The notes under the pieces: generated by a model | What the model saw: the letters and a program-made list of their open reading frames with translations, nothing else | Databases searched by the model: none | Told to the model about the DNA's origin: nothing | Program-made: the position numbers and the translations under genes | Shown here: one piece after another, positions 46,392 through 53,667 of the stretch | How positions within the stretch are numbered: the stretch's first letter is position 1 | Layout of the letters: the number at the start of each line of letters is the position of its first letter | DNA from: Marinifilaceae bacterium | GTDB taxonomy: Bacteria > Bacteroidota > Bacteroidia > Bacteroidales > Marinifilaceae | Assembly: GCA_016744515.1 (NCBI GenBank) | Contig: JADGEF010000002.1 | Coordinates: 16,772-80,771, forward strand | Direction of reading: 5' to 3' | DNA: 64,000 nucleotides

Positions 46392-47147
46392 ATGCAAAAG
46401 TTTATTTACACACTTATAGCCTTAGCTCTATCAATTCAGGTTTTTGCCCAAATTAGCACTAACCCAATTCAAGAAGCAAATGGTTTTTATCAAAAAGGCG
46501 AATACGAAACGGCTATCAAGTCGTACGAGTCTGTTCTAGAAACACGTATTGAAGCTCCAGAGATTTATTTCAACCTAGCTAATGCCTATTATAAAACAGG
46601 ACAGATTGCTCCTGCTATTCTTAATTATGAAAGAGCTCTCCTATTGTCTCCTGATGATGAGGATGTGAAATACAATTTAGGATTGGCTCAGAAGAATGTT
46701 ATCGATAAGCTTGAAGTTTTACCCGAATTCTTTGTGTCATCATGGGTATCAGGCATATGGAATCGATTAACTGCAAGTGCATGGTCTTATCTATCTATAA
46801 TTAGCTTTTTTCTATTCTTAGCTCTGTTAAGTTTGTATTTATATAGCAAACTGAGTCGAATTAAGAAGCTTGGCTTTTTCTTATCAATCTTGTGTTTACT
46901 ATCAAGTATCGTTTTCTACAACTTTGCATCAAAAATGAATGAGCAACTAACACTTAGAGAGTATGCCATTATTTTCAACCCAAGTGTAACGGTTAAAGGA
47001 TCTCCTAATGAAAGTGGGACTCAACTTTTTCTTCTACACGAAGGAACTAAAGTGAAAGTGATAGAAGAACTTGGCGACTGGCGAAATATTAAGATCAGCG
47101 ATGGTAATCAAGGTTGGCTTAAAAAAGAAGATATTGAAATTATCTAA
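46392..47147 (+). CDS. batE: TPR + SH3-like protein BatE
   Basis: TPR units, TM segments, C-terminal SH3 (NPSVTVKGSPNESGTQLFLLHEGTKVKVIEELGDWRNIKISDGNQGWLKKEDIEII). Confidence 0.9.
   Translation: MQKFIYTLIALALSIQVFAQISTNPIQEANGFYQKGEYETAIKSYESVLETRIEAPEIYFNLANAYYKTGQIAPAILNYERALLLSPDDEDVKYNLGLAQKNVIDKLEVLPEFFVSSWVSGIWNRLTASAWSYLSIISFFLFLALLSLYLYSKLSRIKKLGFFLSILCLLSSIVFYNFASKMNEQLTLREYAIIFNPSVTVKGSPNESGTQLFLLHEGTKVKVIEELGDWRNIKISDGNQGWLKKEDIEII
46956..47147 (+). repeat. Direct repeat copy 1: last 192 bp of batE
   Basis: 186/192 identical to 51659-51850 by hand alignment. Confidence 0.95.
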
Positions 47148-47167
47148 ATTAGGTAAAAGCATAAAAG

Positions 47168-47193
47168 AAGGGCAACATTATTGTTGCCCTTTT
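47168..47193 (+). terminator. Terminator downstream of batE
   Basis: AAGGGCAACA-TTAT-TGTTGCCCTT + TT. Confidence 0.75.
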
Positions 47194-47209
47194 CAGGCCA
47201 GTGTCGGTT

Positions 47210-47437
47210 CTATTCTTCTTCCACGTCTATATATTTTCTGCACTCCTTCTCTTTATCTCTATTGTATGAGGCTACTTCAAAATTATCGGCATTTACCGCT
47301 TCAATTTTCTTCCTTTGAAAACTATCAGCCAATGCTGCATTATAAAGCTTTAAATCAACAAGTTTAATCTGTATATCTTTCATTACCTGAATCTGCGATA
47401 ATAACTCACCAATACGTTTGGCATCTGCTTTTTGTAA
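47210..47437 (-). pseudogene. 5'-truncated open frame, helical C-terminal remnant
   Basis: Minus-strand open frame LQKADAKRIGELLSQIQVMKDIQIKLVDLKLYNAALADSFQRKKIEAVNADNFEVASYNRDKEKECRKYIDVEEE* lacking a convincing start; stops immediately upstream. Confidence 0.35.
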
Positions 47438-47490
47438 CTATTAATTACTTATTTAATTCTGTTAGTATTTCTTGGATATTCATCATTGAT

Positions 47491-47652
47491 TCAATTAGAT
47501 TCTTCCATACCCCAATCCTGATCATCTTCAGAATTATCATGTTTTACTTCCCATTTATAATCACAATCGGGACATAAATAGATGGTTACTGTATCATCTA
47601 CATCAAATAAATATGCATTCTCTTCACTACAGTTTGGGCATTCAATAATCAT
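47491..47652 (-). CDS. Small zinc-ribbon protein (53 aa), below the ORF-track cutoff
   Basis: MIIECPNCSEENAYLFDVDDTVTIYLCPDCDYKWEVKHDNSEDDQDWGMEESN*; paired CPxC knuckles. Confidence 0.75.
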   Translation of the reverse strand: MIIECPNCSEENAYLFDVDDTVTIYLCPDCDYKWEVKHDNSEDDQDWGMEESN

Positions 47653-47684
47653 AAACTTACATTTAACTAATTATACATTAACTC

Positions 47685-48977
47685 TCACTTATCAATAGTT
47701 TTATTCTCAGTGCAAATTTCTTTCCAGGCTATAAATACTTTACTTATATTCTTATAAAAAACATTCACAACACCATCAACGTTTACCGTAAAAATCTCAT
47801 CCCATTTGTCATCATAAATATTTTCTGCTGGTTTACAATCACCAATTACATATGCTTCAAGATTTAAGTAAACCCAATTACTATCATTAAATGTCATAGT
47901 TACTCCCTTTTCTTTGAACTTTGATTGAATTTCTCTTTTAACTGCCTTTTTTGCATCACTAATTTCACTAAAAATTCCACACAAAAACCTTTCCCTATTT
48001 TGAATTTCTATAGAGAAAAACAATCCATAATATTTATAATTTTCATTTTTAAAACCAAACCTCATAGCACTAGTGTCTTCTACATTAACTTCTTTATGAA
48101 CAGCACTTACACATTGCCAGCCTGTATCATCCTCTATAAGCTTATCGTAAAGCTTCTTTAAAAACTCTTTGCGGAGATTTACCTTAAGAGAATCTCGCAA
48201 TGAGTTCAAATTGCTAATGCAACTATTCATATCAGCGACCCTATTCTTAACAATGATATAATTATTTCTTACGTCATCAGTCAATAACAGTTCTTTTTTT
48301 AATAACTCATCCAATTGAGTATTCATAACTTCAAATCCTTTACGTAAATTAAACATTCCTTTCAAGTGGTCAACATACTGCTCAATCCCACTGATCAATT
48401 CTCGATCTTTAAGTCTACATTTAGGCAAAACGGCTTCTTCTAGCCAAGGAAGAATATGATGCCTAAAACTGATTCCCTTATATCTTGGGCCTAATTTATC
48501 TCTCAAATAATCAGGGAAACTACTCTTGGTTGGTTTTTTCTCACCACATCGTGTTAAGTAAAGAACATGAATCTTGTTAAGAGCTTTTCCTTTTAACTGA
48601 ACTACATCAACATACCTTTTTAATTGCTCATCTTGATCAACGGCATTATGAATTTTATTCTCTATGATAACTGCATAGTTGTCATCTATAATTGTAGCAT
48701 CAATACGATTTTTTTCAGCATGAATTTTTGGATTCGTAGGATTTTCCCCGATATCAAGATATTTTAAAAATGATATTAAATTTGAATATTGATTAACCTC
48801 TTGGTATTGCAATATTTTCACCAAAATACGACTATGAGCATTCTCATCAGCATGTACTTCATCGATAATATTGAGATGATAAGGAGCATTTTCAATAAGT
48901 TTATCCTTTTCTACTTGATATTTATTAACAAATTTTAAATTCTGTATCATTTTTATTGATCTATCATTTTCTGCCAT
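47685..48977 (-). CDS. PD-(D/E)XK nuclease superfamily protein (PDDEXK_4-like)
   Basis: DENAHSRILVKILQ..., RIDATIIDDNYAVIIENKIHNAVDQDEQLKRY (D...ExK core); start moved to Met at 48977. Confidence 0.8.
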   Translation of the reverse strand: MAENDRSIKMIQNLKFVNKYQVEKDKLIENAPYHLNIIDEVHADENAHSRILVKILQYQEVNQYSNLISFLKYLDIGENPTNPKIHAEKNRIDATIIDDNYAVIIENKIHNAVDQDEQLKRYVDVVQLKGKALNKIHVLYLTRCGEKKPTKSSFPDYLRDKLGPRYKGISFRHHILPWLEEAVLPKCRLKDRELISGIEQYVDHLKGMFNLRKGFEVMNTQLDELLKKELLLTDDVRNNYIIVKNRVADMNSCISNLNSLRDSLKVNLRKEFLKKLYDKLIEDDTGWQCVSAVHKEVNVEDTSAMRFGFKNENYKYYGLFFSIEIQNRERFLCGIFSEISDAKKAVKREIQSKFKEKGVTMTFNDSNWVYLNLEAYVIGDCKPAENIYDDKWDEIFTVNVDGVVNVFYKNISKVFIAWKEICTENKTIDK

Positions 48978-48991
48978 AAAAATATTATTAA

Positions 48992-49465
48992 CTATTCTAA
49001 TTGTTTTAAATACAACTCTCCACAAGCTCTAGCGTCGCTAAGTGCTTCGTGGTGATCAAGATCAATGTTGTGCTCCTCGCAGCAGATATTAAGTGCTGAT
49101 CCGTACATTTTGTAAGTACATTCCCAACGGTCTGGTAAATTCAATTCAGAATAATCTATATCGAGATCTTTCATACTTTTTGCCAAGACATTACGGTCGA
49201 AGGGCTCATTATGCGCTACCACAATTTTACCTTGCAGTCGCTTTTTAATTTCAGGATAAATTGCAGAAAAGAAAGGAGCATCTTTAGTATCCTTTGCTGA
49301 AATGCCATTTACTCTGGTATTGTGAAAGTTGTGTTTGTTCTTGGGTGGTTGTACTAGCGAATAGTATTCTTCAACTATTTTCCCATGTTTAAAACTGACA
49401 ATACCAACTGCTGATATATGATGTTTTACTGCTGTTTCAAAATCTATGGCTACAAAATCTTTCAT
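48992..49465 (-). CDS. DEDDh 3'-5' exonuclease (DnaQ-like)
   Basis: FVAIDFETA, VVAHNEPFDRNVL, HHEALSDARACGELYL. Confidence 0.92.
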   Translation of the reverse strand: MKDFVAIDFETAVKHHISAVGIVSFKHGKIVEEYYSLVQPPKNKHNFHNTRVNGISAKDTKDAPFFSAIYPEIKKRLQGKIVVAHNEPFDRNVLAKSMKDLDIDYSELNLPDRWECTYKMYGSALNICCEEHNIDLDHHEALSDARACGELYLKQLE

Positions 49466-49587
49466 TACACTATTTATTACATTTGATTCTTAAAATTGAC
49501 AAAAATGTCACACATAATTCTTGGTTAATAAATAAGATCTTTTGCGAATATTCTAAATTTCCAGAATACACATTGCTAAAATAAGCT

Positions 49588-50490
49588 TTAAACTACACTT
49601 TTAGCCGCTTTTAAATGTTCTGCTCGAATCTCCTTTTTTAGTTTTTCAGGCTGAATAATTTTCACATGTGAACCATAAGAAAGTAAGTCCATTTTAAAGT
49701 CGTGTGATAAAAGCACAAAAAGCTTAATTCTCAATTCATTTTCGTTATCAATCAGAATTTCCTGACTGTGATGTAAGGGCAATGATTTTGCATACTTACC
49801 CTGATGTTCATCGAATGATAGTATAACTTCCTCTGCTTCTTTCTTATCAGGTGTAATAATGCCTACAGCATGCTTAAAAAATGAATCAGCAGTAACACCC
49901 TCCAACTTATCGAATTTCATATTAAAGGGTTCCAAACTCAAAAACCTGTCTAAAGCAAAAGTTTTGAACTTATACTCATCCTCTGTATCACGAGCCCACA
50001 AATACCATCGATTTTTGTACTCTTTAAGCCCATAAGGCTCTACGCGTCGTTTACGAAGAGCTGTATCCCAATACTTTTGATAATCGAAACAGACTAGTTT
50101 ACATTCTTTAATTTGATGCAGTAGTTGTTGCATATACTGTGTACCAGCGGGAGCCCTACTCTCCAAATGCACAAAATCAGATAAGCGTTCGGCAATGTTT
50201 AAGGCATTAAAAATATCCATAGCCTCCATAATTCTATTGCTCACATCCTGATTTTCGATATCGGCTGTATGATAACCATTTTTCGACTTATCGAATATAA
50301 TTTCTATCCCATAAAGTGATAAGATATCGTTCTTATCTCTATAAAAAGTTCGTTCAGAAATATTAAAATCGTCGGATTGAATTTCAGACTCAAGGGCTAA
50401 GTAATCTTGAATTTCTTTGAATGTATGATAACCATTTCTCAATTTCCTGATAATTAAACTATAGCGCGCAAGGGTTTCTCTCTTCGACAT
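49588..50490 (-). CDS. WYL-domain transcriptional regulator
   Basis: N-terminal HTH; CKLVCFDYQKYWDTALRKRRVEPYGLKEYKNRWYLWARDTEDEYKFKTFALDRFLSLE. Confidence 0.9.
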   Translation of the reverse strand: MSKRETLARYSLIIRKLRNGYHTFKEIQDYLALESEIQSDDFNISERTFYRDKNDILSLYGIEIIFDKSKNGYHTADIENQDVSNRIMEAMDIFNALNIAERLSDFVHLESRAPAGTQYMQQLLHQIKECKLVCFDYQKYWDTALRKRRVEPYGLKEYKNRWYLWARDTEDEYKFKTFALDRFLSLEPFNMKFDKLEGVTADSFFKHAVGIITPDKKEAEEVILSFDEHQGKYAKSLPLHHSQEILIDNENELRIKLFVLLSHDFKMDLLSYGSHVKIIQPEKLKKEIRAEHLKAAKSVV

Positions 50491-50566
50491 TTCATAAGAT
50501 TTTATAGAGCGACTAAGTTACATTTTTTTGATAAATATTCATTGAGGCTATTTATAAAAAAATGTA

Positions 50567-51304
50567 TCAACAAGCCATTAGAACAGTCAAACATATTTCA
50601 TCTTCTAAATTCGAATCCAAAGCCGTTCCCCAAATAGTATCAAGTTTATTTTCTGGATAAAAATCAATAATATTATCTAATATTTCAGAAATCTCAACCA
50701 TTGTAGCTTCAGTTTTATTCGAATAAACATTTACTAACATACTTTTAGGATGACTAACACAATTATCACCTTTAGCTAAATCGCTCAATATCTTATGGCT
50801 AGCCTTCATGGCTCTATCTGCTCCCTTACAAACTGTTGTAACTAAAACGACTGAGTTGTTTTTTTCAAAAAACACCTTTACATGAGCTAGGTCTATATTG
50901 ATATAACCATTCAGATTTATGAACTTATATAGCTCTTCAATAATTGTTATTATTCTACTATTATCATCAACAAAAAACACTGAGTCAAAAAGACTTCTCA
51001 AATCCTGACCTGCCTTTTCATTTAACGAATCAGATTGTTTTAATACAGCAACACACAAGCTGTGTCCGCAACGCTGCTGTTCTATCAATTTTATACATTC
51101 ACTTGATATTTCTCTATCGGTATCCATTAAAACAAAGGTCATTTTTGATTTTGAATCTACCATATAACTAGCGATATAAGTTTCGCTTGTAAGTAACACC
51201 ATTGGCTGATTAATTACTTTTTCTATTTGCTTAGAAAAATCTTGCCATTCTTCACCTATACCAATTACATTCACTTGAACCTGATCGTTGTTATCCTGTA
51301 CCAT
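50567..51304 (-). CDS. Degenerate FtsZ-like protein lacking the tubulin/FtsZ GTPase signature
   Basis: NGYINIDLAHVKVFFEKNNSVVLVTTVCKGADRAMKAS and EISEILDNIIDFYPENKLDTIWGTALDSNLEDEICLTVLMAC match the second half of FtsZ; no GGGTGTG. Confidence 0.65.
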   Translation of the reverse strand: MVQDNNDQVQVNVIGIGEEWQDFSKQIEKVINQPMVLLTSETYIASYMVDSKSKMTFVLMDTDREISSECIKLIEQQRCGHSLCVAVLKQSDSLNEKAGQDLRSLFDSVFFVDDNSRIITIIEELYKFINLNGYINIDLAHVKVFFEKNNSVVLVTTVCKGADRAMKASHKILSDLAKGDNCVSHPKSMLVNVYSNKTEATMVEISEILDNIIDFYPENKLDTIWGTALDSNLEDEICLTVLMAC

Positions 51305-51658
51305 ATTTTCACATTTTGATTGATTATAAATCAAAAATACATCAACATACTGACAGAAGGTGACAGTAGAAATGTTTTTTCCATTTTTTTATAGATCAAA
51401 AAATAATCAAGTTTATGGCATCGCCATATTTGCAGTAATGCCATAGGATATGGGGAAATTTGGAGTAAAGCAAAAGCCAAACTTTGGAGGTTTGGCTTTT
51501 AGTATGATTTAAGTTAAATCTTAATTTATAGTTTGAATTTCAATACAAGAGAACCTGTGGGATTCGGCTAATAAATTGATGGGAACGGTAGAGTTATAAG
51601 AATATAAACATGTGGTGTTGAGCTTGATTTTATTGAAATTTGCCAGCGATAAATTCGA

Positions 51659-51850
51659 AGAGAGTATGCAATCATTTTCAACCCAAGTGTAACGGTTAAA
51701 GAATCTCCTAATGAAAGTGGGACTCAACTTTTTCTTCTACACGAAGGAACTAAAGTGAAAGTGATAGAAGAACTTGGCGACTGGCGAAATATTAAGATCA
51801 GCGATGGTAATCAAGGTTGGCTTAAAAAAGAAGATATCGAGATTATATAA
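51659..51850 (+). pseudogene. Truncated batE 3' end (direct repeat copy 2), 63 codons in frame
   Basis: Codon-by-codon match to 46956-47147 with 6 differences, 5 of them synonymous. Confidence 0.92.
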
Positions 51851-51869
51851 ATCAGATAAAAGATTATAA

Positions 51870-51908
51870 ACATCTTCTCAAATTAAAAATTGAGAAGATG
51901 TTTTTTTA
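51870..51908 (+). terminator. Terminator downstream of batE fragment
   Basis: ACATCTTCTCAA-ATTAAAAA-TTGAGAAGATGT + T7. Confidence 0.8.
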
Positions 51909-52593
51909 TATACAAACCTAAAGTTTAATATGCCTTTAGGCGTTCTTCCCTCATAATTATTTTTTTTGAAAGTCTCAATAAAATGAAATAAACTTAATAT
52001 ACCCAGACACAAACAACTCTCTTATAGTCCCTGATACATGGTAGATTATAATTTGTGTTTATTTACTCACAAGCTCGTTAATATGTTAGTGAAAATCTGT
52101 GGTTTTTGTTTTTCAGCTCTCATTTTAATTCCTGATCTATTCATACTCTGACAAGAACAGATTGCCTATAATCAGAGCATGACGAAGATATAGCTGAAAA
52201 GAAACATATTCTAAAGAATGTTAATTTGATATTTGACCCAACTTTTAAAACTTATCCCATATAGCCCTATTATCATTCTCTTTATTTGACTCCTGCAGAA
52301 CCGTATAACTTTGATATATCCTTCGGATTTAATCTCCAAGTTCAAGCTATCATGATATGATTAAAAAATGATGCTTATCTTTTTGTAAAATCGTTACTAC
52401 GTTTTACTCAAATCATCAGTATGTTTTTATGAAAAGATACTGATGGTTTCACCACCCCATAAGCATAGCTGATTATCAACACATTACAGCACATTTGAAA
52501 AATCTTAAATTATACCAATTTAATCTCAAAATCATCTTAGTAAATCTACTTCTTGAGACATCGTCTTTTTTATACCGAGATCGTAAATTTCTA

Positions 52594-53667
52594 CTAATAA
52601 TCTTTCACTTTTGTTTCTCCACGAAGAATCATTTGTCCATAATAAGCCAATGCTCCTAGAACTTCAGCACCAGGCATAACATATACAGGTGCAATTATTT
52701 CAACTCTATTTCTAATTTCTCTCACAAACTTATCATCCTTCGCTAGGCCTCCAGTAATTACGATACCATCTACTGTTTCCCCATCGAAACAAACGTATAA
52801 TGAAGAAATATACTTTGAGATTTGATAGGCCATAGCAGATAAAACCTCTTTAGCTTTCTCATTTCCTGCATCTCTCATTTGACAAACATCGAAAGCAGAA
52901 TGTGTTTTAAAATAAGCATATAGTCCACCTTGACCAGATTGTTTTTTCAGCATTTCATCCTTCGTATAGTCTCCAGAGTAACACATCTTAATAACATCTC
53001 CCATCGGTAAAGATCCACTTCTGATTGGAGAGAATGGTCCATCACCATCATAAGCTTGATTCGCATCAATTACTCGCCCTTTTTTATGGGCACCAATGCT
53101 AATACCTCCACCTAAATGAGCGACGATTAAATTCATATTTTCATATTCTGAATATTTAAGCTTAGCATATTTTCGAGCAGATGTTTTTTGATCAAGTGCG
53201 TGAAAAATTGAGCGCCGTTTAAGATCTGGATTACCTGTAAAACGTGCAATATCCTGTAGTTCATCTACCACAACAGGGTCTGCAATATAAGCCGTCGCAC
53301 CATCAATAGCCTTAGCAATACCATTTACCAATAATCCGCCAAGATTTACAACATCTTCACCATATTCTGAACAACGAAGGTCTTTAATCATTTTTTCATT
53401 TACCTTATAAACACCAGATTTCACAGGCTTAATTAGGCCTCCACGCCCTATTACAACTTTAATATGCTTTAACTCGATATCATTTTCTTCCAATTCTTTC
53501 AAAATCACTGATGTTCTAAAATCAGCTTGATCGTTAAAAAGAGGATATGCACCTTCTTCCAAATCGTGATGATTAATTTTTTTGAAAAATAAAGTTGAAT
53601 TTCCTTGATAAACTGCCACTCTCGTAAAATACATTCGTGGATTAAGTGCTAATACTAGATCTCTCAT
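52594..53667 (-). CDS. buk: Butyrate kinase-like acid kinase
   Basis: LALNPRMYFTRVAVYQG, NLIVAHLGGGISIGAHKKGRVIDANQAYDGDGPFSPIRSGSLP, DGIVITGGLAKD. Confidence 0.9.
   Translation of the reverse strand: MRDLVLALNPRMYFTRVAVYQGNSTLFFKKINHHDLEEGAYPLFNDQADFRTSVILKELEENDIELKHIKVVIGRGGLIKPVKSGVYKVNEKMIKDLRCSEYGEDVVNLGGLLVNGIAKAIDGATAYIADPVVVDELQDIARFTGNPDLKRRSIFHALDQKTSARKYAKLKYSEYENMNLIVAHLGGGISIGAHKKGRVIDANQAYDGDGPFSPIRSGSLPMGDVIKMCYSGDYTKDEMLKKQSGQGGLYAYFKTHSAFDVCQMRDAGNEKAKEVLSAMAYQISKYISSLYVCFDGETVDGIVITGGLAKDDKFVREIRNRVEIIAPVYVMPGAEVLGALAYYGQMILRGETKVKDY

Follow-up and report, generated by a model that had tools for sequence, protein, structure and literature searches.

Genomic context and boundaries of the insertion

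The window, a 64,000-nucleotide stretch of contig JADGEF010000002.1, comes from a draft genome of 231 contigs (estimated contamination 3.4%) and carries a 5.4-kb insertion of defence- or stress-like genes adjoining batE of a marine Bacteroidetes bacterium (Table 1). Orthologues of batE in five named Ancylomarina genomes show 84-90% protein identity, and these relatives place the window in an Ancylomarina species (Marinifilaceae). The comparison set consisted of five other Ancylomarina species.

Table 1. Features of the batE/buk locus, in window positions, and of a related gene cluster in genome G156.
Feature	Position	Strand	Remarks
batE	46392-47147	+	Intact; TPR and SH3 domains; repeat copy 1 is its final 192 bp (46956-47147)
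Ancestral batE terminator hairpin	47168-47191		T-tract cut at 47191-47193, the left insertion edge
57-aa ORF	47210-47383	-	Sub-threshold UVR motif match
53-aa Zn-ribbon protein	47491-47652	-	Profile match
PDDEXK_4 nuclease	47685-48977	-	Pfam E=3e-14; PADLOC PDC-S26 E=2.8e-34, nearly full length
DnaQ-like 3'-5' exonuclease (RNase_T)	48992-49465	-	Profile matches
WYL-WCX transcription regulator	49588-50490	-	Two genomes of the family encode relatives (45-47%)
Short FtsZ-like protein, 246 aa	50567-51307	-	FtsZ C-terminal domain; GTPase half short, GGGTGTG absent
Decayed hsdM 5' fragment (type I restriction methylase)	51547-51660	+	In-frame stop
hsdM/batE junction	51655-51660		4-6 nt microhomology, out of frame
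Repeat copy 2	51659-51869	+	Truncated, dead batE 3' fragment plus ~16-19 nt beyond the stop
Hairpin terminator	51868-51903		Differs from the terminators behind batE in relatives
Mosaic of short dispersed Ancylomarina intergenic repeats	51902-52545		Includes palindrome 52135-52184
Right insertion edge	52580-52594		Homology with relatives returns just before the buk 3' end
buk	52594-53667	-	Butyrate kinase, beyond the right insertion edge
G156 locus	L150 4960-14550	one strand	GmrSD, WYL, 170 aa, FtsZ/tubulin GTPase half (168 aa), RtcB, DUF6557-like, DnaQ, FtsZ-like C-domain protein (238 aa), SLOG, calcineurin phosphoesterase

The site is empty in all five of the other species, where a hairpin terminator separates batE from butyrate kinase (buk) on the opposite strand, the two genes lying ~60-90 bp apart wherever the contig is continuous. 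In one relative (G004) the batE and buk sides are found at the ends of two contigs; a repeat was considered as the cause of this break and rejected, as the buk contig begins just before a normal terminator. Homology between the window and its relatives ends at 47191-47193 and returns at ~52585, and comparison with the five relatives places the insertion at ~47193-52580. To its right the sequence goes on, within one contig, through buk to further conserved genes. With the same site empty in 5/5 congeners, the locus is a lineage-specific accessory insertion at an otherwise conserved batE/buk junction.

These boundaries differ from those of the first-pass annotation, which described a 4.5-kb island bracketed by two copies of the batE 3' end and predicted that an empty site would join batE directly to the sequence following 51850. 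The second copy lies inside the insertion, ~0.7 kb from buk, and the relatives instead show batE, a terminator of the copy 1 type and then sequence from ~52580. The same annotation gave each copy its own terminator. Hairpins do follow both copies, but the T-tract of the copy 1 hairpin reads TTTTC, compared with a run of 6-9 T in relatives, and with this truncation the hairpin loses its score as a plus-strand terminator.

Genes carried by the insertion

The genes between the two copies all lie on the minus strand, as had been noted, and profile matches confirmed the Zn-ribbon, PDDEXK_4, RNase_T/DnaQ, WYL plus WCX and FtsZ C-terminal domain assignments. Defence-type matches obtained with PADLOC comprise a PDC-S26-like nuclease, a PDC-S48/DEDDh-like exonuclease and the WYL protein, which are candidate defence genes or genes associated with them. 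No complete known defence system was found among the island genes, and PDC-S26 was not mentioned in the literature searched. The cargo is probably a stress- or defence-related gene block, its defence role being putative. The Zn-ribbon protein (47491-47652), near the decayed methylase, shows weak similarity in PHROG to Lar-like restriction alleviation proteins (E=3.7e-4).

No integrase or transposase match was obtained for any of the six island proteins examined, in agreement with the first reading, and a recombinase may have been supplied in trans. The window contains no tRNA, and there is no Rfam match near the insertion. A plasmid or viral origin of the cargo was set aside, as plasmid and viral collections held nothing close to the nuclease or the FtsZ-like protein. 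A conserved island shared by relatives was also rejected: the cargo occupies batE/buk in 0 other Ancylomarina, and homologues found elsewhere lie in different contexts.

The FtsZ-like protein falls outside FtsZ as defined by a GTPase domain with GGGTGTG, since this motif is absent, the domain is shortened and the match is to the C-terminal domain only. An AlphaFold model built from the single sequence had a pLDDT of 38 and was unusable. Two further FtsZ genes stand in tandem in the same genome (G000:C30, L154 14-2393), the first cut by the contig start, and tandem ftsZ matches also occur in other genomes of the order.

The suggestion that the island genes be sought at other loci was partly rewarded. 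In G156, a genome of the same family, a WYL regulator, a small DnaQ exonuclease and a short FtsZ-like protein again share one strand, and the two FtsZ halves are separate genes; other homologues of the island genes occur in differing contexts. The window differs from the G156 locus in lacking RtcB, SLOG and phosphoesterase genes, in having the PDDEXK_4 nuclease and in gene order, and the WYL and DnaQ proteins of the two loci are only about 30% identical. Mutual BLAST between the two short FtsZ-like proteins was uninformative, each being linked to FtsZ separately. This pattern suggests a loose recurrent association of WYL, DnaQ and short FtsZ-like genes, at low identity and in two genera only, for which a stress, RNA-repair or defence role may be proposed. 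No description of the gene set was found in the literature searched. The most interesting feature of the locus, and a lead for specialists in RNA repair or bacterial defence, is the short FtsZ-like protein that lacks the GTPase motif and is found alongside WYL and DnaQ genes in two genera. It would be a long shot to suppose that the three genes form a recurrent, undescribed stress or RNA-repair/defence module of the family, with the truncated FtsZ as a division-arresting or scaffold partner, carried here by an insertion able to pop out via the batE copies.

The duplicated batE 3' end

The reported 192-bp direct repeat is real: the copies at 46956-47147 and 51659-51850 lie on the same strand and differ at 6/192 positions (96.9% identity). 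A recount also upheld the nature of the differences (46967, 46970, 46999, 47135, 47138 and 47144), five of them synonymous changes at codon position 3 and one a Gly/Glu replacement. Homology between the copies extends weakly for ~16-19 nt beyond the stop, giving an alignment of 211 nt at 95%.

Compared over the repeat stretch with the five other species, the copies show 78.6-85.4% identity, each being far closer to its twin. Since the copies are 96.9% identical against a divergence of 15-21% from other species, copy 2 comes from the same species or one very closely allied to it, yet not very recently. The differences cluster at the ends of the repeat and leave a central 135 bp (47000-47134) identical between copies, an arrangement with P of about 0.004 for six randomly placed changes, which suggests homologous exchange.

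Five or more synonymous changes among the six would be rare if both copies were wholly unconstrained (P = 0.002-0.007), and the first-pass annotation took the pattern as a sign that both had evolved as functional gene ends. The outcome is not significant if the living copy alone was constrained and three changes fell on each copy (P = 0.11-0.18). Polarised against the five species, three of the changes arose on copy 2, namely 46999 (the sole replacement), 47135 and 47144, as a dead second copy would lead one to expect; the other three sites are ambiguous. With half of the changes, including the replacement, derived in copy 2 and with P at 0.11-0.18, the synonymous bias is therefore not proof of two functional ends, and copy 2 is itself truncated and out of frame with an hsdM remnant.

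That remnant (51547-51660), which abuts copy 2 on the left, was overlooked in the earlier reading. A search with 51330-51665 matched two hsdM genes, one in this genome (G000:C14, 82%) and one in another (G002:C7, 78%), so that 18% of positions differ between the fragment and the hsdM of its own genome. The hsdM homology runs into batE copy 2 and AGAG is common to both; among random hsdM/batE junctions, 2% share at least 4 nt.

On the right, copy 2 runs beyond its stop to a hairpin at normal spacing, followed by dispersed repeats. Because it is flanked by the hsdM remnant on one side and by a different hairpin and dispersed repeats on the other, copy 2 is a 5'-truncated pseudogene piece within a mosaic scar, neither a functional gene end nor an att site.

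Two of the dispersed repeats occur elsewhere. A 55-bp element lies directly behind the terminator T-tract here (51902-51956) and again after aroA in the same genome (L128 939-994), as if it inserted behind terminators. An imperfect palindrome of ~50 bp (52135-52184) is scattered through Ancylomarina intergenic regions and in G002 forms a nine-copy tandem array with a unit of ~108 bp (L123 3506-4441). This array prompted the idea of an integron-like origin for the right-hand repeats, which was rejected, as the common unit is the ~50-bp palindrome without genes.

Origin of the scar

The best explanation, to which we give a probability of about 0.5, is that recombination at batE duplicated its 3' end together with the cargo and that a microhomology deletion then trimmed the right junction. 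In this history a near-identical batE allele would have recombined with the batE 3' end by a RecA-type process, so that accessory DNA, a type I restriction locus among it, came to lie between two copies of batE. The 4-6 nt of microhomology would later have mediated a deletion joining hsdM at approximately codon 52 to batE at codon 189; the remainder of hsdM and the beginning of the second batE would thereby have been lost, and only the end of that copy would have survived. The 135-bp identical core would derive from later gene conversion between the copies or from the original crossover having taken place there. We infer both this order of events and a homologous rather than a templated duplication.

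This history would account for an adjacent gene being the source of copy 2, for the gene end running to a hairpin at normal spacing and for the identical core. It also fits the batE-terminator-buk arrangement of all five congeners and the retention by copy 1 of the orthologous terminator with a cut T-tract. The earlier idea of an incoming batE allele survives in part, as the near-identical batE and the 135-bp core fit recombination, but copy 2 forms no gene end. Against recombination followed by deletion, the hairpin and the 0.7 kb of repeats to the right of copy 2 are found downstream of batE in none of the relatives, which would require the usual terminator to have been lost from one batE allele. 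Neither the longer second batE nor the rest of the restriction locus that this history postulates was seen.

We rank this explanation above its nearest competitor, a less probable but serious one, in which break repair in an already decaying insertion drew on the neighbouring batE 3' end for some 210 bp of filler, through microhomology-driven template switching. Such an event would involve no second allele and no homologous integration, and it suits a short copy 2 lying among other short fragments, with microhomology at its left junction and the adjacent gene as its source. It would nevertheless make a coincidence of a fragment that passes through the gene end and halts before a hairpin at the usual spacing, and the identical core would require later gene conversion. 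Under either history, recombination or template switching, the copies are predicted to be still able to recombine and delete the island.

Two further explanations seem improbable. The earlier reader proposed that an element using the batE 3' end as its attachment site had integrated and rebuilt the gene, with direct repeats bounding the island; foreign genes do lie between direct repeats of a gene 3' end, and the similarity of the copies to each other far exceeds that to other species. However, the repeats do not bound the insertion, copy 2 is out of frame with the hsdM remnant, no recombinase gene was found and no similar repeat-bounded island occurs in the relatives, so that we hold out little hope for this model. 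Slighter still is the chance of an assembly artefact, in which the 135-bp identical core, about as long as a large short-read k-mer, joined sequences that are non-adjacent in the cell. The number of contigs and the estimated contamination of the draft would allow such an error, but copy 1 has its orthologous terminator, the right side runs into buk and conserved genes on one contig, and the 18% difference of the hsdM fragment from the genome's own hsdM means that the junction is no misjoin to that gene.

Comparison with known systems

The locus as a whole is an ordinary though instructive accessory-region scar, with no sign of a new mobile element. Its lesson is that a striking direct repeat is easily mistaken for an attachment site: comparison with relatives shifts the boundaries, and a second gene fragment exposes the recombination scar.

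Integrative elements are known to insert at the 3' ends of genes, and the locus resembles them in having foreign genes beside a same-orientation duplicate of a gene 3' end. In such elements direct repeats form both insertion boundaries and a site-specific recombinase is encoded, whereas here the duplicate is internal to 47193-52580, dead and fused to an hsdM remnant, and no recombinase match was obtained among the six island proteins.

Accessory and defence islands are also exchanged by homologous recombination via flanking core genes, as in core defence hotspots (PMC10250203). Like these hotspots, the batE/buk locus holds variable cargo between two conserved genes, with defence-like genes and no recombinase. 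It differs from them (PMC10250203) in being occupied in one of six species and in its duplicated core-gene end and scar, which are particular to this site.
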